Part shown: positions 2,056 through 28,688 of the stretch, one piece after another
How positions within the stretch are numbered: the stretch's first letter is position 1
Layout of the letters: each line of letters starts with the position of its first letter
Source of the DNA: Chondrilla cf. caribensis
Taxonomy: Eukaryota; Porifera; Demospongiae; Chondrillida; Chondrillidae
Reading direction: 5' to 3'
Assembly: GCA_964020155.1 (NCBI GenBank)
Contig: OZ026546.1
Span: forward strand, 3,065,400-3,095,399
Length of the DNA stretch: 30,000 bases
Notes under the pieces: model-generated
Told to the model about the DNA's origin: nothing
The model's input: the letters and a program-made list of their open reading frames with translations, nothing else
Database searches by the model: none
Made by a program: the position numbers and the translations under genes

Positions 2056-2099
2056 AACAGCTTCTTAGAATGACTGTCCCATTCTTAGAATGAGTGTTT
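2056..2099 (+). repeat. Left terminal inverted repeat
   Basis: Begins AACAGCTTCTTAGAATG and ends GAATGAGTGTTT. It matches the reverse complement of 15202-15245 with one mismatch (G versus T at 2088). Inside it the palindrome TTCTTAGAA, followed by TGA, occurs twice, 20 bp apart (2062 and 2082), a layout expected of paired transposase binding sites. Similarity to the other end stops sharply outside 2056. Confidence 0.9.
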
Positions 2100-2282
2100 C
2101 ACAAATACTGTTAGGCTTCGTTTGCTTTTTTGTACATTTTCACAAATATTCCCAGACTAGTGAATAGAACTATTAAAAGAATATTATTGAGAGAGTATAG
2201 TCATATATTTTTGCAAATTACTATCTCAAAAATCGTTTACAATTATGAATTTGTTGGCAAGAAGCATATATATTTACAAATA

Positions 2283-5200
2283 TTACATGGCAAGATTGTC
2301 ATACATAGTTTTCAAACAGGCTACAGTCTCTTTCTTTAAATGTTGTGTTTTGGTTAAATGAAAGTCAAAGAGTAAAATAGAGTTTCTAGATATCCAGTCA
2401 GTCCATTCCACTTTTCTTCTCTTATTGTGTTCATCCTCCACCATCCATGGCTGCCAACCTTTGTTATACGCACCTTTGAGCCACGCTACCTTTATTTCTG
2501 TGCCTTCTATCTCTTCCACCCTTCCAATAGATGGTGGAGGACAATCTGCTACATGGACTGCCACAAGAGAGCCAACCCCAAGACATGTTGTGTCCTCAAC
2601 ACCAACTATGTCCTTCTTGCCTATGGACACCTACAGCAAGATTTAGAAATTGACATATTAGATGACATGTGCATTACATTGAACAATGAAAATGTGGAAC
2701 ACAAATTTGTGTTCTGAAGACTCAAACACAGAGCACAAATTTGTGTTCTGAAGTATTAACTCAGAGTGCAAATTTGTGTTCTGAAGTATTAACTCAGAGT
2801 GCAAATTTGTGTTCTGAAGTATTAACCCAGAGCGCAAATTTGCGTTCTGAAGTATTAACCCAGAGCGCAAATTTGCGTTCTGAAGTATTAACCCAGAGCG
2901 CAAATTTGCGTTCTGAAGTATTAACCCAGAGCGCAAATTTGTGTTCTGAAGTATTAACTCAGAGCGCAAATTTGTGTTCTGCTTATCGAATAAAATGGCG
3001 TATTATAGATAGACAATAAATCAGCCATAGCTCCAAAACGCAAGTTCGAATGGTCTCCGCGCTTTCAGGGAACATTCTACTAAACGTTTAGATTGGATTT
3101 ATCGCAGAAAAGAATTGAAAAACTTGAAAGACCCGTATCTCTGTTTACGTAACGCGATATTGCCCCTTTTTATATAATTATAATAATTATATATCACTAA
3201 TATTATTGTACATTAGCGTAGAGACATTACGTAAGTACTTCCGGTACTGCCAACGCGCTGCGTCTCACCAGCTGCCTGGGAATCACGCTCATCTCTTTCT
3301 AGTTCTCAAGCAAGATCTGATCATAGACGCTCGAAGAAGAGGACCTATCTCTAATGGAAGATTTTGAATAGGTACAGGATCGTGATGGATAGCTTTTGTT
3401 CACGTAAGTGTTCTTCGCGATGATTTCGATTTTGAACCTTAGTATCACAACCTTTAGCTTTGCTTTAACTTAATTACCTTATAGTAACCCATAGACACTC
3501 TAAACTAGGGACGTAGTTTATAGGGTCTGTGGTATGACAGTGTGTGATTCGTGGTGTGTTCAATTTGTAAATCACACTGCTCACCGAGGATGTAGAGGCG
3601 ATCATGGGTAGGATACTCTCTGCCCTGGGCTGTTTGGTGACGTTCACGTGGCTATTAGCCAAAAGGATTGGTAGCATCCAACGTCTCGAGGGGGGTGGTA
3701 ATGGCTCCTTCAGAAACATGCCCCATTCTTCTACCGAGTCTTCCTGGAGCCATTTGCCCCACTTGGGGATGTCTCGCTGAAGATATGGTATATCCATTTT
3801 ATCCATGGATGGATCGACAGTGGCCGGCTGTGTCCTTAGTACTGGAAGTGACTGCATGGTAGATACATACCTGTGTATAATTACTCTTTTCTCTGGGCAC
3901 ACATTACATTTACGTACCTTATTATAGTCTGGGGATAGCTAATTCATAATTCATGAAGTTTACTATGTATTCTAAATTTTAGCTTCCCTCTAACTGTTAT
4001 ACAGGAGTAAATTACCTCCTGGTTGAAGCTGATCATTGTTGACTGTACCTCCCAGAATAAAGTGGTATGCCATCATATCTGACCATTTCTCTGATAGTGG
4101 ATAAAGGGCTGGCTATGCTAGACTACCTATTGTGTTTTAAATTTCTGATAATTGAAGTTACTCTGTATCCTGTATTTTCAACTACAGCATTAGACGGCTG
4201 GCAACCGTATGTGACCCAAAGCACCAACGGTGAAGAATGAACGTCCTTTCATTTTGAACATGAGGTACTAAGTGTAGCATATCAATGGTTGATTACTTTG
4301 GTTCCTATGTACATATGTCTATGTACATCGATGTTACAGCGTAATTGTGTCTTAAAATGTGTTTGAACATGAAATACGTATAGGTTATACAATAAGAATC
4401 GAAGATTTATCAATTCATACACCTGAAGGCGGAGCCCAAAGGTGTTTATCTCTAAACTTCCATTCCCATTGTATAACTATCTTGTACCATGATGCAAGAC
4501 ATCTAAAGACGTAGCTTCTGTAAGCACATCAACTTAATCTCTTTGTGCAGAGAACACCATGTGAATAGTAATGAGGTGTATTACAGGCTAATATACCTCA
4601 GGTAGTGTAGTGAATTATACACCTGCCCACATGAAAGAACGCCTATGCATCATGGTACAAGTGTACATAGTCAATTTTGTAATATGCTACTGTATAATAG
4701 TTATACCTGAAGTAACGGGGTTGGTATTCTTTTCCATGTGCCTTTACTGGTATCCCTGTAATCCAGTAGTGCTTTGCCTTTGTCATCCAGCTGGAACTTA
4801 AAGCACAGGGGCTTTGAATGGCCACTGATGGTGGTTGCATGAGGCTCTAAATAATCTTTGTAATTAAAGATTGTGTCTAGATGGATGACCTCCGCTGTAG
4901 GTGTGTATGCACCTTGGATTTTGTTTGATAAATCTACGTACATTCGTTTTAATGTGGAGGAAATAAGAATATGAGTGATGGTGGTAGAATCTGCTTTAAA
5001 TTGAAGTTATAATGCACAAGTACTCCATGACACAGCTTTAATTGCATATAGATGTGTATGTACGTATGTGCTAAGTATTGGACGTATTTACTGGCTCTTT
5101 TTACTTTAATGTTTCACGCACCTTGCAAACTCTCTATGCCATGCTTAAGAATGTGCTGGGATATTCTACTAAAAAATTGGTCACAATCGGCATGAGTGTG

Positions 5201-8000
5201 TCCCACAGGCAGAAAGTTTATACGTATCTGAATAGGAAAAAATCGTAACCATATTATACATGAATATTAAATTTAATGCTGTGTATTTGCTGCACACCTT
5301 ACGAAAAACCTTGAGCTCAACAAGCAATGCACAATATGCAAATATATATCTGTTTTTATTTTCCCGGTAGCAATTATCCATCTGTAGGTAGAGCACTTCT
5401 GGTAGGTGGGTCTGATTGGTAGTACAATATCTTGATAACAGTTCTTCCAGAATATTTATTGTTAAATTGGAGTCGTGTGGCCACTGTAACATGTCTACAA
5501 AAGCATACACTTGTTTACCACTGGGATCTACAGTATGGATAATTGCACCGGTTAAATGTGTCCTCAGTCTCCATAGTCCCTGTTGAAGGAATGAATATAC
5601 AGGTGATGATCATATTTCTTAGACTACACTACTCTATAACTTGCTTGAGCAGATTTGCTCTCTGTTGGTAGGAAAGGTACTGAGGTCTTCTTCTGGTCCA
5701 TTCCATCAATGATGATAGTTAAATACTTCTTGGGATTGGACCTAGCCTTTTGAATATGCTTGTGGTACAAGGACCTTTCAATCCTGTATATTGTATACAA
5801 GATTGATGTCAACCTTAATTATAAGGCAAACGCAACTATTGTTAATTTATGTACATATGTACAGTTGGCATCAGAAACTTCACCATAACATACCTATGCA
5901 TGCATGGTAATCTTAGTTACGTATGTCAGTGCAACACGATAATAGAATTTTTTTAATTTGATCATAATTGTACTGTACGTCTATCATGGCTGTTTAGAGA
6001 GCTCATATTGTAGTAGTTGTAAAATTTGGTCTATGTAGCATTCTCACAAACATACTTGATTTCTTCCAAGTGGATTTTGTATTCACTGTCCAATTTTGCC
6101 AGTCCTGCCTTGTTTCCTGACAATTTTTGTCGTTCATTTTTGTACATCACACATGTATCGCATTTAGCAAATCTATTGGTCTGTAATATGTATGTATATA
6201 GGTAATAATAGGTACGTACATATATTATAGATGTACAAAGGTGCACTATGTCCATGAGTAGGCATATACATAAAGTTACTGATCCACATATACGTAGAAA
6301 GTAACGGTATGTAGTGTTAACAGGCCCTAGAGGAATACCTTTGGAATGGAAACTTTAGGGAAATTTTCATTCCAAACCACATAGAAGCGTGACAGGGAAA
6401 TTATCTCCGACAGCTCCATTCCCTTGCTGCAGAAGTCTTCTCTCAGCTCTTTGTACACGCCTTCCCGTGATAGAAAGTGGGGTAGATGTACCATTTCACT
6501 ATCAGGCATTTTGTCCCCAAAGAGGTCAAACCAATTTTGCATCCATACAACAGCCTGTTGCACCCTTTGTGAATGATGTACAATTACAGTATATAAAATA
6601 TATTTATTGTAAGAGTAAATTTATGAAACTGTCCTACATCTATCACATACATACCTATCGGAAATCTTTCTACCAGTTGGCTTCAAGGGTGTTATGGTTG
6701 TGATCCCGGACTTGTACAGTTCTCTTATACGGTTAATGCGACGGGTGGTGGTATTCATCAGTGCAGCGAGGCCACAATCACAAACATGTTTGCCTTTGAC
6801 TAGTATCTGTTAATATGGTGCAATGTCATATATAAACATTTGCTAATAGTAACTCACATATTGTAAGAACAGATGAAATTAGTTATCACTAATTGCTCTG
6901 ATACAATCCACAGCTATTTACATATGTGTATTTGTACATTGCCACTGTAATGCGTGTGTATGTGTGTGCTTTTGTGTGTGTGGTTCTGTCTGTCTGTCTA
7001 TCTCTGTGTGTGTCATATTTACAGTACATACGTATGAACGAGAGGCCTTAGCTTGTCTGTGGTTTTACCTGATTGTGTCCATGGTTATCTGGCTGTGATG
7101 CTACTAACAAGTCCAGTAGGAATTGTCGTTGCTGGTGTACGGACTTTTTTGCAAACATTTTTGCACATTGATCTTTTTCATCTTCAGAATAACTTAGTAG
7201 GCAGTTTCTACTGCAACACGTGACTACATACGTACATGGGATATAATACTGTGATAGTGTATAATATTCTTCATAATTTAAATTTACATATACCGGTATA
7301 GTTGCTACAGTCTGGCTCGTATAATAAGAATGAAAGATACGTTGTCTTTTGGCACTTTAAGGTGAATTTACTCATGTACAAATGTAAGTGGGATGAGGTG
7401 TTTGCATGTATATGTTATGTGTGTATGCATGTTTAGGGGCTGGGATATGTGTGTGTTCTTATTCATGTAATTTTTATATTGAACAAAATAACAACCGATG
7501 TGTTCTTTGAAATTTCATGTACTTACAAGTGAACCCATGTGTGCTCACTCGACCAAGTAGCATTTACAGTACACCATGGTCAGGTCATTACACATGTAAA
7601 AATGTTATATTCTCTTCTGCCCAAGTTATTGTACTTTCTCTTTCTAATTTTGTAGCACCAGGGTTCATGAAGACAAATTTCTGAACAGTTTTGAACTCCA
7701 TTATTTAAGACATTCATATGAATATACAAGGTATAATTTCATTTACAACAACTACTGTATTATTTTTACATTGTAAAACTTTTTCTACTCTTAGTAAGAT
7801 GGAATTTATTACAAAACTTGACAGTTATCGCATGCATGATACGGATACGTATATACACGTAATAAAGTTCAGTATACTGTACCTGCATCCGACAATAATA
7901 TGGCGTCTTTCCTCTTCTTCTCTGGAGGTGGCGAATCAAATACATTTTCGAGCTCGCTATCGCTTTCGAACGAAATATCGATGTCTAACTCCAAAGCCAT
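2283..8000 (-). CDS. DUF7869-type DDE transposase, 11 exons, about 714 aa
   Basis: Exons (high to low): 8000-7883, 7223-7069, 6806-6655, 6564-6339, 6180-6056, 5783-5645, 5579-5298, 5227-5122, 4933-4707, 3851-3585, 2630-2283 (stop included). All junction phases match. Introns are GT-AG except 5644-5580, which is GC-AG. The N-terminus is acidic with a PPPEKKRKD nuclear-localisation-like patch (residues 24-32). Cys-rich stretches follow: VTCCSRNCL, HVCDCGL and RFAKCDTC. The catalytic core shows IIIDGMDQKK (D285), HDSNLT, LYLQMDNCYRENKN (D373) and FLPVGHTHADCDQFF (D413/D415), the hallmark blocks of this family. Residues 600-714 form a separate C-terminal module (IGRVEEI, WLKGAYNKGW, WTDWISRNSILL) found in relatives as I recall them. 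Likely role: binds the TIRs and catalyses excision and insertion. The junction 4707/3851 across an 855-bp intron is the least certain; a small extra exon is possible. No stop or frameshift seen. Confidence 0.85.
2697..2982. repeat. 33-bp palindromic tandem array in the last intron of the transposase
   Basis: Nine copies at a 33-bp period (first spacing 34). Each is centred on CAAATTTG, which starts at 2702, 2736, 2769, 2802, 2835, 2868, 2901, 2934 and 2967. Units contain TTCTGAAGTATTAAC and CAGAGYGC. Central units have the longer palindrome CGCAAATTTGCG, outer ones TGCAAATTTGTG. The array keeps several frames open because 33 is divisible by 3; I do not regard those frames as genes. It lies inside intron 3584-2631 and mirrors an array at the other end of the element. 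Confidence 0.9.
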
Positions 8001-8145
8001 TTCGCAGTTGCTCGATATGTGCAATGAAGTACGTACGTACGTATATCATTGGACGAAATGCTACCAGCTGACTTAGCTCGTCCACGGCGCCGGCGGTATA
8101 TTGTGCGCGCGTTTAAGCAAAGTGAAATAGCAGAAGAGGGGAAAT
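8001..8145. promoter_or_regulatory. Divergent (bidirectional) promoter between the two transposon genes
   Basis: The 145 bp separate the start ATG of the transposase (8000, minus) from that of the ParB-like gene (8146, plus). The interval contains an ATTGG (inverted CCAAT) at about 8048, a GTACGTACGTACGTA run, and a GC-rich patch with CCACGGCGCCGGCGG and GCGCGCG that stands out from the AT-rich surroundings. No clear TATA box for either gene. A shared core promoter is inferred from the spacing. Confidence 0.65.
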
Positions 8146-11100
8146 ATGCCTTCGAAACGATGGTACCTTTTTAACGACCGCAATATCGGCAAAATTGCTT
8201 TGATGGATGACGTAGAAGGCCAAATGATGAAGAGGCAAGACGGCGGCGACCTGGGATATATCACGGATATTAAGATAGCCGTAATTAGTTCCGACGACGT
8301 AATACAGCAGAAACTTCGGAAGTTCAAAGTTGCAAAGGAGACTGTTCTGGAGGTAATTAAGACTTAGTATAATAGTATTTGTAGTATACGTAGTAGTATT
8401 ATTTATAATGCAATGTATATCCCAGTGTACGAGTAGATATTGAGGACCTATTTAGTCCATGTATATAGGTAAAGTCACACAATGAATGTTGAGTGATATA
8501 ATACTGTAATAATAATAATAATAAAGGATACAATTGGAAATAATATTTAAAGGTGATAATAAAATAACTTCATTGTAATAATTAAAAGTACTATTTAGTG
8601 TAAGAGTAAATTTAAATGTCAAAATGTTCAGTAGCGCCATTCCTTAGCATTCGTAGGTACACCACTCTATTGAAATGTTTGATTCTCCCAATCTGGAAAA
8701 GGATTACAAACGGTTATGTAACATTCTGCATTTACCGTATTTTACGGTTTATAAGTTGCACCTGGGGATAACCCGTAAAATACGGTACTATGAAAATTAA
8801 ACACATCACTGAAAAACATCTAGTATCAGACTGTATCACGTGTATGTGAATTAGTGTATTGTATTAATAATCTCATTAAAGAAATCAACAAAGGTAGAAA
8901 GGATACTATTTCCTAAACACCAATATTTCCCTGTAGTTTCTCTGTGATGAAGGACGTAAACTTCTGAGTGTGGACTACTTTGTTCACAACAGAAATCCCT
9001 TTTCAAAGCAGTTTCAAAAATGTGAAACAGCACGGGATTTTGTGAAGACAATGACAACAGTGACCGACTTTCGAACCACTGAGCTTAGTGATTCTGATGG
9101 GGAAAGTGGTGAGCATATGCTAACATCAACTAGTCATGAAATAATATTAAAACTTTAGTTCAACTGTATTACATAATACAGTTTGTGTTAACATGCGGAA
9201 ATATGTATGCATCAACTCAACTTTAGATGATGATAGTCTTCCAATAAGTACCAGCTCCGGTGAACTGCTTGTCAGTATAGGTAAGCGAAGTGCTCCGAAT
9301 CCCTCTGGGAATCCATCTAAGAAAAGCAAACAATCATCAATGAAGCAGGTATCCACGGACTTAGATAGCCGAATTGAACGAAAAAAAATTGGTTGGTAAA
9401 TAAATTACAAGGATTAACAAAGTAATCTGTCAAGAACTCTGTTCATTTTCAGGTGATATGACAGTGCCAGTAAACCAGTGTTTGGAACCTCCAAAAGAGA
9501 GGCTGCTTCGAGGAATAGATGAAATATTTTTAGAAAAACTAAAGAAAAATATGAAAGCTGATCCTTACGGACCTGGTGTACCATCTGTAGCTCTACTGTG
9601 TGCAGATGTCAGAAGTACCGAGGACTTTGAGGTATGAAATGTATTACACCAGACATACGTATGTGAGTATGTACATATTATATTAAATATAATATGACAA
9701 AACAGTGAACCTAATATGCATATACATACGCCTGTATGTACGCAGCAAATTTGGAATTATGTACTTTCCCTGAAGTACATATGTCTGTTTCTAGATGTTA
9801 CTACAAAACACTCGTATCTGTATGTGTATTTGATCAGTAAATATAGCTTCAGAGCACACATAAACATTTACTTTTTTCCACCTTGTACTATACAGTAAAT
9901 GTATTAAGTCAGAACATCATACGGCATATGGTGTGAAAAGTAGACGTTCTATGGGCATTCTACAGTTCTATGTATGGATTGAATCAGATACAGATACGGG
10001 CGTTTTTGTGAAAATGTACTAATACAGATGCAGCCATTTGTGATAACATACAGACACCGATATGGGCGTTGTTGTGAAAACACATGGATATAGAAACAGG
10101 CATAGATTATACAGACAGGCATAGTTGATAGACAACGTACAGGTCTTATTTGACATTCGAATCTGCTGTTTCCTTCTGAGGATTCTTCTGAGCTATAATG
10201 TAAGCATTTGACTTCTTACGCTCTATTCTCACTCAAAGTGATCAGTTTGGACAGTTACTGTCTTAAGTACATATTTTGAAAGACTACGTAGGGTTGTAAG
10301 TATGGGCGTTTTCCTAGAAACATACTGTTAGAAAACGGATGGACCCACGGCCGTTGGTATGGGAATGTGTAATGCTTTACACCACGTATGTGGTAGGGGC
10401 CTGAAAATATTTAATGATAACTGCAATGATATGATGGTAAAATAGCAGTAGTATTATGAACCATACCTACATATGCATGTATGGCATGTGCACATCTACG
10501 AAGTTTACAAAGTTATCAATAACATTGTGGTTTTGTGTTAAGAAAATAGTAAAATCTGATTAATGTGTATGTAGATCACAAGGTAATAATAATAATAACA
10601 GCAATAGTAATAACTGAAGTTTACTAAATTACACACTACAGGAGAGATTCAAAGACCAGTATAAATACGAAATCATTGGCGGTTTACACTCTGTAACAGC
10701 AAGACAACAGCTGACTAGTGTAAATCACACCTTTGCCAATGTAAAAGCAAGTGTTTATGCTGGCCTGACAGATGACGAAGCTTTACATCTGGCAAAACGC
10801 CACAACATCAATAGCCATCTGTCACATGAGGTCACTCACAAGGACTATGTGAGTACACATACTTCTTGCAGTAGAATGTGCTCACCTAACATCAGTATTG
10901 TTCAGCGCAATCACTCCTCTTGAAACTACTGCCATAGATCCATGCTTGTCGGATTCGGTTGTTCAGAGTCGCGAACAAAATGGGTGACTTAGAATCTACT
11001 CATGAAGCCCCTCAAGGAACAACACAGTGGAGAGATGAATGTGGGGAATACATCCTTCCTAAAGTAAATAACAATACCAAAACAATTCTAACAAGTCACA

Positions 11101-14100
11101 ATACACATACGTATAAACACCTCATTAATTATCCCAATTTGCCTGTTAGACTATGTCATCTACAAACAAACGAAATATACTGAATGTGGCTAGCATGTCT
11201 ACAGAAGTGTGGGAATTGGCTGAAAAAGTGATGGAGGCATATGAAGAAGGACTTACAAAGGTGATGTTATTAATACAGGGCACAAGTTAAGTGCTGCAGG
11301 ACACCAGGATATAACGTCTTATACATTTTTGATCATACTTCAAACTTAAAAGTAATTTGAAGAGCTCTATATTGCAAGTGTATAATCAGCTTTTAGCGAT
11401 TACACAATCAATTTAGTTAGTCTGGAATAGGTCTATTAAAATATCTACTCAATCAATTTATACTACTTCAACTAATCCATCTTCTTATATCATAAAAGTG
11501 CTTTAACTAAATCTCTTAAAACTGAAGTGACTTTCACTATAGGGACAAAAGATTAGTACAAGCAAATTGAAAGAAGGAAAGAGACCAGAAATCAAAGCTC
11601 ACATGTTTGCCCCACTCTGCAATCTACCAAATGGGTTTCAAATTGAGGTGCTGAAATCTGTTCTAGATGGTAAGATACACATATGTACATGTAAACTAAG
11701 GAAGAATAATGCAAAATCTAATCAATATACCTGTTGACACATTTCAGGTAGCCAAAAGGTCAACGAAATGAAATCAGCTGCTGAAGACTATCGAAGAATG
11801 GATAAAACCAAAAGGGCCTTTACGAGAGCAGTGAAATGCCAGTCATGGGAGGAAGCAGCCCGGTCATTTCCAATGTATGCACAGGAATGTAAACTACGGG
11901 AGTTCACCCAACTGAAGTTTGATGGCACTAGCCTTCCTGCGTCATTCATTGGATATTGTCAAGCCGCAATTGACGGAGCAAATGTGCAAACCACGTCAAC
12001 TGCAGTGATGTATGGCTCATTCAGGTATGTAATATATGTTTTTATTACTACTCAAGCATCATAGTCAGACCCCAATGTTTGGCACCCCAAACCACAAAAA
12101 TCATGTTCCTCTGATATTTCCCCACGCAATGCAACAGAAATATTACCCTATTCACATGGACGCTGTAAAGCGGGTTGAACCCGAGTCGAACTTGGTTTAA
12201 AGCGAGTTAGTGCGTTCACATGACGTCACAAAACCGGGTCGAACCCAGGTTAAAATTCCGAGTCGAACCCTTGTAAAAAGTAGCTAAGGTTTGATCCGGT
12301 TAGAAGCGAGTTAATAATGGTGGACTAGTAGGACGAACATCGAGTGACGATGAGATCCAAGCTTTGCTTAATATAAATAGTAGTTCGACTCAGTTTATTA
12401 TTTTACTGAGCAATAACATGCTGCCTTTCGAGAAAACACTTTAGTTCCCGGGATGAAAAGTTGAAAGTGCCAACACAAAAATTCTGTTTCAATTCCCTAT
12501 CGAACCGAACGAACAAGAAAGCCAAAAAATGAGCAGTTTGCAAAGTCTGTACTGCCGCAAAACGGTTCATAACTGCTCTTCTCGTCATATACCTGATCCT
12601 TAGTTGCTGTCTACGAGCTCAATGCAATGCCACAACTAAAACAAGATGAGCAGAACGCCCAACATCGCCATTTCCTGGAAATGAAATATTTACACAATAT
12701 GTGAATCTTGTGAACGGAAATCAGGTCAAAAGCGGGTCGAACCCGATTTAAATCAACCCAGGTTCAACCCACTTACGGCGTCCATGTGAAAATGGTATAT
12801 TATGCATATCTGATATTAATCAAATTGAGGCCTATGTGCATACTAGGGACATTACAGGACAGAAGATTCGTCAACAGCAAGAAAATTACTCAGGAAGCAC
12901 ATTGGTCATTGCTGTTCTTGAGAAGGTATGGGGCTTATTAATATCAATCAGTATAAGCTTTTAATTAATGAACATTTTCTTTCCTGACATTAATTATTAT
13001 AGGAGTTTAATATAAGAACAGACTTGCTAACCTTGGTATTAGCTGCCAAGCAGGTGAATGCCATTACAGCAATCCAAGAGATGTTCACTCTTGCGATTCT
13101 TTGCTCCTACCATCAGAGTAAGGAGGTGTTCTCTATTGTGGAAAACAACATGGACAAAGCTCTGATGGCATTTACACATTGCCGTACAATACCGCAAGGT
13201 AAGACATATGCTTAGCATACATTCATAGACACCTGATGGGTTATCCTTAGGACACAGAAACAACAATCGTGTCTTATTTCAGAGTTATTCCAGTAAGATA
13301 TGCAACTCAATTAGGAGTAGATGAATATAGAACTTCAATTATATCATGTTGCATTTCAAATTTATTGCCAGAAGGATGTTCTGAGCATATTGTACTATTT
13401 AGCCAACATAATCACCAAAATTGAAGGCTGAATCCCATAGTATAACTTAGTTTCTATCTATCATCTCATGGTTAAGTGCATATTAAATTAGGGCTAAGAC
13501 AAATTTAAAACAGTTACTGTTTTCCAGATCAATTTCTAGTAAATAGGCTCAATCGATGGATTGTTTAGGGTTACATTGCTTAATAATGTCAGGATCGAAG
13601 CCGATTATGGCTGTGATCGTTCTTTTCATGTGATCGCTTAACCAGTAGCAATACTAGTTCGTGCTAAATCATGATACAAGTCTCGGATTCTATGATTTGA
13701 GCGGGTAAATGTACATGCAGTACGAATTTCCTCACAGCCACTGTAGACGACGACAAATAATAGATTAATTTTACCTTCGTGGAATTTTCATTGATCAAAC
13801 TTCCTAAACTTCGATTCATGGGAGACCCCGTCGGCCAGACAGCTGATCGATGTGTATTCACGAGTGCACTCAGTTGACTGTTGTGACGCGATTATAGTCT
13901 ACCTGGTCCGTCCCCGCACGCGCACCACGGGCGTTAAGAGCGGGACGGGCGCGTGTGCGGGGACAGGCTTGCTAGCGAGATAGATAGCTGGAAAACGATT
14001 GGTAATGCATATAACCGCGTAATAAACGCAAATGCAAACACATAGGCGAAACAAAATTATTAAATAACGCTATGATAGAAGTTAGTTGTCATGCTGAGCT

Positions 14101-15021
14101 ATTATACAAGATTAAATATGAATTTGTCATTTATTCCCTAACTCTGTCCCTTCACTTCTACGTATTCCAGTCACAGAATTGCATTCCCTCATATTGATAT
14201 CACATAATGGCTGATTCAGAATCTGTCAAGAAATGTGTACATACATGGTTTTGCCATCAATGTATATAGCAGAGTAATAAGTTTATACTAAACAATGTCT
14301 GATGCATATCAATTTTATATACGTACAGCTAAAGAATCCACAGAGCCATTCTCATTGCAAGAGAAAGTTGCCTGTTTGGTACTTGGCCATTACCATGTTG
14401 GAGAATGTAGATGTAAAATTGCACACGACAACCTGTTTCAGGGCGAATCTGGCAGTGCCATCTTGAGGGACATTGTGAGAACCTTCAGCAGTGAAGGGGA
14501 CTCTGTTCTGGACATCACAGGAATTTCCGGTGAGAAAAAACATGAGAATATCTAATAGTCCATTTCGAGAAAATCTGTATTCCATACCTATAATAACATT
14601 GCCAATTGCACGACAATCAATAATATTACGGTTAATTTGTGGGATCACAAGTATGATAAATGAGTCATCCTGGATCACAAATTTGTAAACTGAGCCAGAT
14701 CACAAATTTGTAAACTGAGCCAGATCACAAATTTGTAAACTGAGCCAGATCACAAATTTGTGAACTGAGTTGAATCACAAATTTGTAAACTGAGTTGGAT
14801 CACAAATTTGTAAACTGAGCCAGATCACAAATTTCTGAACTTTAAACTTACAATTACATGGGTTACAATTAGTCTTTCTATTTTCTCTCATAATTCCCGC
14901 AGGATCAGACATTGCAAGTGCTGCCAATGAAGAAGCAAGAGGATGTATTGTTCTTTGCAATAAAGAAGATAATATATGCTCTATAAGAAAAGACTTTGAA
15001 CTATTCACCAAAGATCACTAA
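8146..15021 (+). CDS. ParB/sulfiredoxin-like domain protein of the transposon, 13 exons, about 696 aa
   Basis: Exons: 8146-8352, 9012-9108, 9227-9391, 9453-9631, 10642-10848, 10938-11063, 11150-11260, 11543-11669, 11748-12024, 12847-12925, 13003-13198, 14329-14529, 14903-15021 (stop included). Phases agree at all 12 junctions. Exon 3 could instead end at 9280 (strong GTAAGC donor, also phase 1), giving about 659 aa without the KKSK nuclear-localisation-like stretch (residues 121-137). Residues ~166-300 resemble the ParB/sulfiredoxin fold: PYGPGVPSVALL, then YEIIGGLHSVTARQQL (G229, G230, H232), then SVYAGLTDDEALHLAKRHN and THKDYIHACR. The GG-x-H-x3-A pattern and the LTDDEA...HN segment are the diagnostic parts; the catalytic Cys of true sulfiredoxins is absent (Leu 231). 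The C-terminal ~390 residues are unrecognised. Position suggests an accessory transposition or DNA-binding/segregation role; this is inference. Confidence 0.83.
8733..8787. repeat. Short hairpin / MITE-like inverted repeat
   Basis: TACCGTATTTTACGG at 8733-8747 is perfectly inverted as CCGTAAAATACGGTA at 8773-8787, with a 25-bp loop. TA at both outer ends fits a tiny Tc1/mariner-style MITE. It lies in intron 1 of the ParB-like gene. Confidence 0.7.
9632..10641 (+). other. Intron 4 of the ParB-like gene with a diffuse repeated motif
   Basis: This ~1-kb intron has no coding signal. It holds three diverged copies of a motif ending in ATGGGCGTT or ACGGGCGTT followed by T-rich sequence and GAAAAC/GAAACA (about 9995, 10057 and 10303), and a short TAATAATAA run near 10585. 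Confidence 0.5.
12146..12795. mobile_element. 650-bp non-autonomous TIR element nested in intron 9
   Basis: The left end CCCTATTCACATGGACGC and right end (inverted) CCATTTTCACATGGACGC form an imperfect TIR that continues through a GGGTTGAACC block, about 36 bp in all. TA lies just outside both ends (12144-12145 and 12796-12797), suggesting a TA target duplication. The interior has repeated GGTCGAACCC-like motifs near each end. A 61-codon minus-strand open frame (12588-12403, Arg- and Phe-rich) could be a transposase remnant but I do not recognise it. The insertion is spliced out with the intron, so it does not break the host frame. Confidence 0.75.
13910..13964. repeat. GC-rich hairpin in intron 11
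   Basis: GTCCCCGCACGCGC (13910-13923) is inverted as GCGCGTGTGCGGGGAC (13949-13964), with a GC-rich loop. Its composition contrasts with the AT-rich 1.1-kb intron around it (13199-14328). It may be the core of a small MITE; no flanking duplication identified. Confidence 0.6.
14671..14845. repeat. 25-bp palindromic tandem array in the last intron of the ParB-like gene
   Basis: Seven copies at a 25-bp period. CAAATTTG starts at 14678, 14703, 14728, 14753, 14778 and 14803, with a degenerate seventh (CAAATTTC) at 14828. The unit reads roughly GATCACAAATTTGTAAACTGAGCCA. It lies in intron 14530-14902, about 360 bp inside the right TIR, mirroring the left array. Confidence 0.9.
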
Positions 15022-15170
15022 CTTGTATCATCATTCCTATCATTTAATCAACACTTGTAAACTTTCCAACATTATTGCCAACTATTGATGTACTTCCAAT
15101 CATTTATTGAGTTAAGAAGCATAATTCACAAATTGTAGCCAAAATATCTGGTTATTTTGTAAACAATCAA

Positions 15171-15176
15171 AATAAA
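15171..15176 (+). terminator. Polyadenylation signal of the ParB-like gene
   Basis: AATAAA, 150 bp after the stop at 15021 and about 25 bp before the inner edge of the right TIR. It would place the mRNA 3' end at or in the TIR. Confidence 0.65.
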
Positions 15177-15201
15177 TCTTCTTGTTGAGGATATTTTGTT
15201 A

Positions 15202-15245
15202 AAACACTCATTATAAGAATGGGACAGTCATTCTAAGAAGCTGTT
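15202..15245 (-). repeat. Right terminal inverted repeat
   Basis: Inverted copy of 2056-2099 with one difference. Contains TTCTAAGAA (15231-15239), and the second palindrome is altered to TTATAAGAA. Followed by AGTA at 15246-15249, matching the four bases before the left TIR. A third related word, ATTCTAAGAG, occurs just outside at about 15252. Confidence 0.9.
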
Positions 15246-15281
15246 AGTATTATTCTAAGAGAAAAGTACTTGATTTAGTCT

Positions 15282-24829: not shown

Positions 24830-24947
24830 CATCCTTTATGTAGTAGATGTACGCACATACAATATATAAGTGGATATACTTCAACAAACAAGTGATCATA
24901 AACTCTGTTTTTATATGAATATAAAACCCTGAGCACATTGAACAGGC

Positions 24948-25755
24948 AGGTACATGTACACACAATACTAACAACCCGAGGTACATGTACACACAATACT
25001 ACCAACCTGAGGTACATGTACACACAATACCACCAACCTGAGGTATATGTACACACAATACTACCAACCTGAGGTACATGTACACACAATACTAAAAACC
25101 TGAGGTACATGTACACACAATAACACCAACCTGAGGTACATGTACACACAATACTACCAACCTGAGGTACATGTACACACAATACCACCAACCCGAGGTA
25201 CATGTACACGCAATATTACCAACCTGAAGTACATGTACACACAATACCACCAACCTGAGGTACATGTACACACAATACCACCAACCTGAGGTACATGTAC
25301 ACACAATACTACCAACCCGAGGTACATGTACACACAATACTACCAACCCGAGGTACATGTACACACAATACCACCAACCTGAGGTACATGTACACACAAT
25401 AACACCAACCTGAGGTACATGTACACACAATACTACCAACCCGAGGTACTGGCATGTACACACAATACTACCAACCTGAGGTACATGTACACACAATACT
25501 ACCAACCTGAGGTACATGTACACACAATACTACCAACCCGAGGTACATGTACACACAATACCACCAACCTGAGGTACATGTACACACAATACCACCAACC
25601 TGAGGTACATGTACACACAATACTACCAACCCGAGGTACTGGCATGTACACACAATACTACCAACCTGAGGTACATGTACACACAATACTACCAACCCGA
25701 GGTAGATGTACACACAATGCCACCAACCTGAGGTACATGTACGCACAATACTAAC
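24948..25755. repeat. 31-bp minisatellite, about 26 copies
   Basis: The unit reads roughly GAGGTACATGTACACACAA followed by TACTACCAACCT. Two units carry an insertion (GTACTGGCATG) at about 25445 and 25635, 190 bp apart, showing a higher-order duplication of about six units. Long Cys-Val-His frames on either strand are by-products. Confidence 0.97.
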
Positions 25756-26325
25756 CTTGGAACTGAAACGGTGCAAGGTTGTAGCAACTATGTTTATATA
25801 AGCTTCTACAACCTTATAGGCAGCTCCAGCAACCGTATTACCAGATAATATATACAAGCTTGTATAACCTTGGAGGATGGATACCATGTGAAAGGTTGTG
25901 TGAAGGTGAGGACAAAGTTGAAAATTGTATATGGGATAACACTTCCACACGGTACACAAATCCTCCTGCGTGATCAGGACATGAATAGTTGCTACAACTG
26001 CATGTGGATCATCCGTCCACTACCTTCGAGCTCCCGGTTCACGATCAGGCATGGACACCCGTAACCGTAGCGGTGAGAATAAGTTGGAGTTATAAGAGTC
26101 TATGTATTAAGTGTCTATGATAGTACACATTCAATGAACCCCAACACTTGGTATACATCAGAAATTAATAACAATGCAAATTAGGACAAATCTATCATAC
26201 TCACGCGATCAATCATACTTTCATTCCAATATATCCACTTTATTCTGCATGGATCCTGAATACCGGATACACATTTTACACAATTTCATAATAAACACAT
26301 TCCATTTCGTAATGCACATTTCCAT
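25756..26325. other. No gene; small hairpin
   Basis: AAGGTTGTAG (25775-25784) pairs with CTACAACCTT (25806-25815). AAGCTT with following ACAACCTT/ATAACCTTGG is repeated at about 25800 and 25856. Otherwise featureless. Confidence 0.5.
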
Positions 26326-26516
26326 TATAAAAGGAATCAGGCTTGGGTCCACAAATTTGTAAACCCACAAAGATCAAAGGGAGATCAAAGAATGTTTACA
26401 CATTCAAAACACAAAACAAATAACAATAATCAATGTGTTCAATAAACTTGCAGCTGTTGCAGCTGATGCCTCATTGGGTTTACAAATTTGTGGACCCAAG
26501 CCTGATTCTCTTTATA
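26326..26516. mobile_element. 191-bp MITE with ~40-bp TIRs
   Basis: The left arm runs TATAAAAGGAATCAGG, CTTGGGTCCACAAATTTG, TAAACCCA. The right arm is its inverted copy, with two mismatches near the outer end. The arm contains CACAAATTTGTAAAC, a 15-bp word shared exactly with most units of the array at 14671-14845. No coding capacity. Confidence 0.85.
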
Positions 26517-28544: not shown

Positions 28545-28688
28545 ATAGTGTTCATTTCATTTGGTAAATTATACATAATATTATAGTATCTATAGCACCT
28601 AGCTACAATCTTGCTTCATGCTAAACCACCTCTATGGGGTGACCACTTGGAGTATGCATAGCAATAGTACCAGTAGGAACACTACATG
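28545..28688. repeat. Dispersed repeat, right half of a split copy
   Basis: Matches bases ~105-225 of the window (TTTCATTTGGTAAATTAT, GCTAAACCACCTCTATGGGG, AGTATGCATAGC). Confidence 0.85.

Follow-up and report, generated by a model that had tools for sequence, protein, structure and literature searches.

A Two-Gene DNA Transposon With Palindromic End Arrays in the Sponge Chondrilla cf. caribensis: a Likely DDD Transposase and a Weakly ParB-Like Partner

Positions 2056–15245 of a 30,000-nucleotide stretch of the genome of the sponge Chondrilla cf. caribensis (C1:3065400-3095399, where C1 is contig OZ026546.1; this whole stretch is hereafter the window) constitute a two-gene DNA transposon that is bounded by terminal inverted repeats (TIRs) and a 4-bp target duplication. 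The left gene (L) encodes a DUF7869 protein, the divergently oriented right gene (R) encodes a protein that is ParB-like by motif, and a tandem array whose common core is the palindrome CAAATTTG lies inside each end of the element. In our view, L is probably the transposase, and the product of R is probably a ParB-like protein whose likely targets are the CAAATTTG arrays located inside the two ends. Through this locus, DUF7869, so far a domain of unknown function, becomes linked to elements that have TIRs, intact frames, and a likely DDD transposase. The locus also extends to an animal the ParB-like partner of large transposons, which is known from algae. The end arrays, which follow R through the genome, add a named candidate DNA site and make the role of the accessory protein directly testable.

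Termini, Copies, and Empty Sites of the Element

The element is 13,190 bp long and is delimited by a 44-bp inverted repeat pair with one mismatch between the arms, the left TIR at 2056–2099 (plus strand) and the right TIR at 15202–15245 (minus strand). Its termini read AACAG, and AGTA is present on both outer sides (2052–2055 and 15246–15249); L and R each stop approximately 180 bp short of the nearest TIR. A 32-mer TIR pattern, with up to three mismatches allowed, yielded 18 matches in the 137-Mb genome (37 contigs) and none for the reversed control, and a shorter 27-mer pattern also yielded 18 matches, as compared to two in its control. Eight of these 18 TIR sites form four complete elements and the remaining ten are single.

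The complete elements comprise the window element, a second copy (C2:325612-339595; 13,984 bp) that is approximately 99% identical to it, and two members of another family (C2:4675921-4691353 and C2:5338779-5354660). Copy 2 is distinguished by an additional stretch near window position 10430 and by a longer right array, and it is flanked by AACA on both sides. A third copy of the window family, on C16, is approximately 99% identical over its readable part. The two members of the second family have the flanks TGAAT/TGAAT and GAGT/GAGT, respectively, such that three complete copies carry the 4-bp duplications AGTA, AACA, and GAGT and the fourth carries TGAAT, a duplication of 5 bp or else of 4 bp with one additional base.

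When the flanks of copy 2 were joined, they matched 20 other places nearby on C2, 12 of which cross the junction without the element and eight of which do not cross it. Three of the crossing matches span approximately 200 bases (82–85% identity) and the other nine begin just 15 bases before the junction (78–81% identity); as judged from these alignments, the junction-crossing matches are related empty sites. No empty-site relative was found for the window copy, the joined flanks of which match nowhere else in the genome.

L and R are multi-exon and conserved, as would be expected if two host genes happened to lie between unrelated inverted repeats. That explanation is refuted by the near-identical copies elsewhere with their own duplications, by the empty-site relatives, and by the recurrence of the TIR, the arrays, and both genes, and we assign it a negligible probability. 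The initial annotation of this DNA had proposed a transposon in which matched 44-bp TIRs enclose two divergent multi-exon genes, with a 4-bp target duplication, and had recommended a TIR search of the genome. The TIR match and the gene models, the duplications here, at copy 2, and in the second family, the near-identical copies at other sites together with the empty-site relatives of copy 2, and the recurrence of the TIRs with both genes all agree with that proposal.

Five of the single TIR matches (C9:1782003, 1833948, 1843199, 1852891, and 1902548) lie on one strand; in the DNA examined they lack both a partner and any match to L or R, and they were rejected as elements. These solo TIR-like ends share their outside flanks where read, and they look like one end that was carried along in local duplications. 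TIR matches on C24 and at C1:7704184 are likewise unpaired. Separately, two element-like loci that are 80 kb apart (C2:5473-5488k and C2:5554-5568k) exhibit near-equal spacing of arrays and genes and are perhaps one segmental duplication.

The Left Gene Encodes a Likely DDD Transposase

Gene models were assembled by joining open frames at phase-keeping splice sites, and 21 of the 22 introns are GT-AG and one is GC-AG. L lies on the minus strand (2283–8000) and comprises 11 exons encoding 732 aa (7883-8000, 7069-7181, 6655-6806, 6339-6564, 6056-6180, 5645-5783 with the GC donor, 5298-5579, 5122-5227, 4707-4933, 3489-3851, and 2283-2630), with nine GT-AG introns and the single GC-AG intron. R lies on the plus strand (8146–15021) and comprises 13 exons encoding 684 aa (8146-8352, 8937-9108, 9227-9280, 9453-9631, 10642-10848, 10938-11063, 11150-11260, 11543-11669, 11748-12024, 12847-12925, 13003-13198, 14329-14529, and 14903-15021), with 12 introns that are all GT-AG. 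The divergent start codons are separated by 145 bp (8001–8145), which is likely a shared promoter region. Two L junctions (the GC donor and one acceptor) were set by the relatives P0001 and C8, with 4 and 19 fewer residues there; the L relative and profile searches were run with a 755-aa model that preceded this correction to 732 aa. The first and last L junctions are the least certain. Support for the models comes from a diverged family on C8, in which both N-termini and the exon order are repeated, and from P0001 and P0121, two database proteins whose sequences continue across several of the predicted junctions.

L matches the DUF7869 profile (PF25273; E = 1.4e-62), and its three top-scoring relatives come from a metagenome (58% identity) and from the sponges Amphimedon (38%) and Ephydatia (45%), as suits a sponge host. 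The genome also yields 24 matches to the wnt family, which is specific to animals. DUF7869 relatives are distributed among sponges, cnidarians, echinoderms, hemichordates, amphioxus, molluscs, and a liverwort. Three aspartates, which sit in IIIDGMDQ, LQMDN, and HTHADCDQ, are kept in 59 of 59, 57 of 58, and 57 of 57 rows of these relatives, and the predicted model of one relative resembles integrase cores and Mos1; a structure search of BFVD with this model returned nothing at E ≤ 0.001. Since the relatives keep the three aspartates and the model of one of them resembles integrase cores and Mos1, L is likely a cut-and-paste DDD transposase. The initial annotation had used the labels DDE transposase and DUF7869 protein; the transposase assignment is retained as likely, and both labels belong to one gene. 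The fold, the aspartates, the target duplications, and the empty sites are the reasons to propose cut-and-paste transposition by L, in which L would cut at the TIRs using the aspartates of the three motifs. No mention of DUF7869 was found in the open-licence literature searched.

Relative to copies 2 and 3, respectively, the window element shows differences of 0.56% and 1.04% in non-coding DNA (arrays excluded), of 0.15% and 0.10% in R exons (copy 3 minus the last R exon), and of 0.27% and 0.55% in L exons. In R, codon changes comprised three silent and no replacing changes relative to copy 2, and one silent and one replacing change relative to copy 3; the corresponding counts in L were four silent and two replacing, and ten silent and two replacing. 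No internal stops were detected in R or L of the window-family copies compared. These change counts are small, and they suggest that both the R and L proteins were needed until recently.

L and R Are Paired Across the Genome

A screen of the genome revealed 56 DUF7869 matches in 24 loci, with one match below the family cut-off, and 77 R matches in 17 loci. A DUF7869 locus was present within 20 kb of 15 of the 17 R loci, as compared to 0.12 pairings expected by chance, and all 15 pairs are divergent. At the sixteenth R locus (C2:5343003), a local tblastn search identified a C-terminal L exon at the other end, also in divergent orientation, and the seventeenth (on C20) is a remnant with stops and no L. 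The loci are not independent, since some of them are close copies, namely three from the window family plus others that score equally. The L-R association is old, as judged by sequence divergence: identity between the window R and its counterparts in three other families is 34–50%.

These data support the claim that the two genes belong together, with 16 of 17 R loci beside a left-type gene and all of these divergent. The initial annotation had also raised other copies that consistently lack one gene as a point that would count against it. Nine of the 24 DUF7869 loci lack R (six single-match loci and three several-match loci, the latter on C19, at C5:3354932, and at C7:2160752). One DUF7869 match, at C1:7830713, lies within a 2351-aa open frame with no R and no arrays and is unlike the multi-exon genes.

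Palindromic Arrays Follow the Right Gene

The left array (2702–2981) consists of 33-bp units with nine CAAATTTG cores and lies in the last L intron, and the right array (14673–14834) consists of 25-bp units with six cores and lies in the last R intron. By position, the array also occupies the last intron in R of the C8 family and in L of the second family. In that second family, the units are 40 and 35 bp and the spacers differ, and the core is the same. Cores begin 455 bp from the right end at the C8 and C20 loci, and each of the more distant families, on C5 and C1, has three. The number of cores varies by copy (nine and six in the window element, seven and 12 in copy 2, and five at the readable end of copy 3). 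The extended pattern [CT][AG]CAAATTTG[CT][AG] is matched by all but one of the 16 cores in the element, and the full CACAAATTTGTG is present in three of these 16 and in five of six and two of six cores at the two ends of one copy of the second family. In 300 first-order shuffles the mean number of cores was 0.58, as compared to 16 in the element, and 94 kb of other DNA contained two.

Scanning of the genome for three cores spaced 15–45 bp apart yielded 60 forward matches, as compared to none in the reversed control. Among the 50 of these 60 matches that were listed, there are 21 clusters, 20 of which are within 10 kb of an R/L pair, surroundings that make up 0.36% of the genome. A narrower array scan yielded 54 matches, and the 50 listed add a cluster on C8 (at a pair) and one on C15 (not at a pair); the four matches beyond these are presumably the C16 and C20 arrays. 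In both scans together, 21 of 23 array clusters among the matches listed are within 10 kb of an R/L pair, and eight R/L pairs have arrays on both flanks. Arrays are present at 15 of the 17 R loci (C16 and C20 counted from DNA read directly) and, among the matches listed and within 20 kb, at none of the nine L-only loci. For the link of arrays to R, Fisher p = 2e-5, and p = 0.009 against the three several-match L-only loci, with the qualification that the kinship of the loci makes these p-values too small. At two R/L pairs the strict pattern detects no array: C2:5760-5770k, and C1:7991-7997k, where three cores are spaced more widely.

These arrays could instead be subterminal binding sites of the transposase L, in which case R would be a passenger or a regulator with another target. 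Transposases of other superfamilies bind subterminal repeats, and the arrays lie inside the TIRs, where such binding takes place. Yet no listed array lies near the L-only loci, including the three with several matches, the C20 remnant of R carries cores without L, and a palindromic core fits the dimer of a ParB-type protein, and we regard binding by L as unlikely. Because the arrays follow R rather than L, and because a palindromic site suits a ParB-type dimer, it is R that most likely recognises the arrays.

Of the arrays listed, only those at C7:526855-526987 and C15:152550-152668 have neither R nor L matches in their vicinity. At the former, the match lengths agree with the 25-bp unit seen in the right array of the window element, and it is perhaps a solo end. 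Elsewhere in the window, CAAATTTG occurs only twice, at 26340–26510, where the two cores sit in inverted arms (GGCTTGGGTCCACAAATTTGTAAACCCA ... TGGGTTTACAAATTTGTGGACCCAAGCC) that perhaps belong to a short inverted-repeat element carrying a similar site.

The Right Gene and Its Possible Role at the Element Ends

The region of R that resembles ParB spans residues ~150–280 and contains the motif YKYEIIGGLHSVTAR...VKASVYAGLTDDEALHLAKRHNIN, the pattern of which is kept across four families. When compared by eye to the ParB motif, the order in R may be read as a strand, a G-x-H helix, a strand, and DDEA-x-x-LA-x-x-x-N, a pattern that is also kept in the four families. Weighing against this assignment, searches of Pfam, NCBIfam, and PHROGs with four R-family members returned no ParB family at a limit of E 10, with filters that drop most matches above ~0.1. 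The ParB-like label of the initial annotation thus survives as a motif reading that these family collections do not corroborate, and R appears ParB-like by motif only, a weak resemblance to the bacterial partition protein.

The C-terminus of R weakly matches N6_N4_Mtase (E = 0.15; 12.4 bits relative to a curated cut-off of 26.7) over profile positions 160–218 of 221, with a further weak similarity to two families of phage methyltransferases (E 0.10) around a single loop, which is taken for an S-adenosylmethionine-binding loop. Unrelated families score as well elsewhere in R (E 0.058–0.29), and the methyltransferase match is therefore a hint. The catalytic motif [DNS]PP[YFW] is absent from all four R-family sequences, three of which are partial; the presumed catalytic-strand position reads VIAVLEK, IIAVLQK, VFAVIGK, and VFALLPE. 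It is possible that R carries a vestigial METHYLTRANSFERASE at its C-terminus.

An active R would be an epigenetic writer that marks its own element with N6-methyladenine or N4-methylcytosine. Activity of this kind is predicted for the Sola1-1_Ec32 protein in the accessible text of PMC12477816, and the weak matches at the C-terminus of R include N6_N4_Mtase at the right end of the profile as well as the phage families. The missing catalytic motif argues against such a writer, which we consider improbable.

With R alone as the query, no relatives were identified at E ≤ 1e-3 among 7,996 scored, and a search with a four-family R profile recovered one relative, P0121, a 326-aa metagenome protein. 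Scans of viral and genome contigs with R profiles returned 19 and 68 pattern stretches, respectively, none of which was confirmed. Matches of R profiles to Protein Data Bank sequences comprised only designed repeat proteins and chance matches and were rejected, and an AlphaFold model of P0121 plus window exons (mean pLDDT 52.6) was not used.

If R binds the arrays, it would load on the palindromes at each end and, by spreading or bridging, could keep the two ends in contact or else mark the element, and in so doing it would help to build or regulate the end complex. The methyltransferase-like domain, the catalysis of which is probably lost, might serve as a scaffold, maybe for dimerisation. 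A more specific version, which we hold only tentatively and rate at somewhat below even, is that the lineage has captured a ParB-parS module of prokaryote type, by which the two ends (or an excised circle) are paired for transposition, with the dead methyltransferase as a scaffold. ParB-parS systems serve in bacterial partition, as with the annotated parB and parS of P1. Like bacterial ParB-parS, the element has a ParB-like motif region and clustered palindromic sites near the gene; unlike it, no ParA-like gene is seen in the element, there is no match to a ParB profile, and the setting is a eukaryotic transposon.

Relationship to the Sola Superfamily

Two other superfamilies were rejected on the basis of their termini or duplications. 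Kolobok elements are expected to generate TTAA duplications, as opposed to AGTA, AACA, and GAGT, and EnSpm/CACTA elements are expected to have CACTA termini and a 3-bp duplication, as opposed to AACAG and 4 bp.

As described in the accessible text of PMC10741241, Sola elements have a 4-bp target duplication, a three-aspartate transposase, TIRs of 11–1124 bp, and lengths of 2 to over 15 kb, and they occur in metazoans and moss. The window element has a 4-bp duplication, a likely DDD transposase with an RNase H-like core, a 44-bp TIR, and a length of 13,190 bp. It was set beside Sola by description, and its duplication, aspartates, TIR length, and size all agree; its fixed two-gene layout with end arrays is absent from that portion of the Sola description (PMC10741241). 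The closest parallel is Sola1-1_Ec32, a 21.5-kb Sola-1 transposon of the brown alga Ectocarpus in which a ParB/methyltransferase gene lies opposite the transposase (PMC12477816, 2025). As far as the accessible text describes it, this element likewise is a large DNA transposon with a ParB-like and methyltransferase gene on the strand opposite the transposase gene, and it differs in its host (a brown alga versus an animal), in its partner (1104 aa, with a methyltransferase domain predicted to be active, versus 684 aa without the catalytic motif), and in that palindromic end arrays are not mentioned there (PMC12477816). Accessory nucleic-acid genes unrelated to R are also carried by other DNA transposons, including Sola2 with Fanzor1 (PMC3627910) and fungal TET/JBP transposons (PMC12730594), in the accessible parts of those reports.

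The initial annotation considered the pairing of these two genes to be undescribed and suggested that it may define a new superfamily. The former is contradicted by the brown algal Sola-1 element, and the latter is disfavoured by a duplication and three aspartates that fit Sola, both within the accessible portions of those reports (PMC12477816; PMC10741241). A placement outside of Sola would be compatible with a likeness that stems from description rather than sequence and with the silence on DUF7869 in the literature searched. The available Sola description (PMC10741241) nevertheless accommodates the 4-bp duplication, the three aspartates, the TIR length, and a size of more than 13 kb, and the only transposon with the same opposite-strand partner is a Sola-1 element (PMC12477816, as far as available), leaving such a placement somewhat unlikely. 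By this comparison, the element probably belongs to the Sola superfamily or is a close relative; it is not a proven new superfamily but rather a probable Sola-like variant in an animal, the end arrays of which likely form a parS-like system. No report of an animal case, of a lost catalytic motif, or of end arrays was found in the open-licence literature searched. Pairing with a ParB-like partner is thus already known in algae, and the animal case and the end arrays are new here, to the extent that the accessible text of the algal report allows the comparison.

Two further repeats were observed in the window. A 75-bp stretch recurs at 96% near both window ends (153–227 and 28614–28688), and positions 24855–25757 comprise a tandem array of 31-bp units with 22 overlapping register copies.
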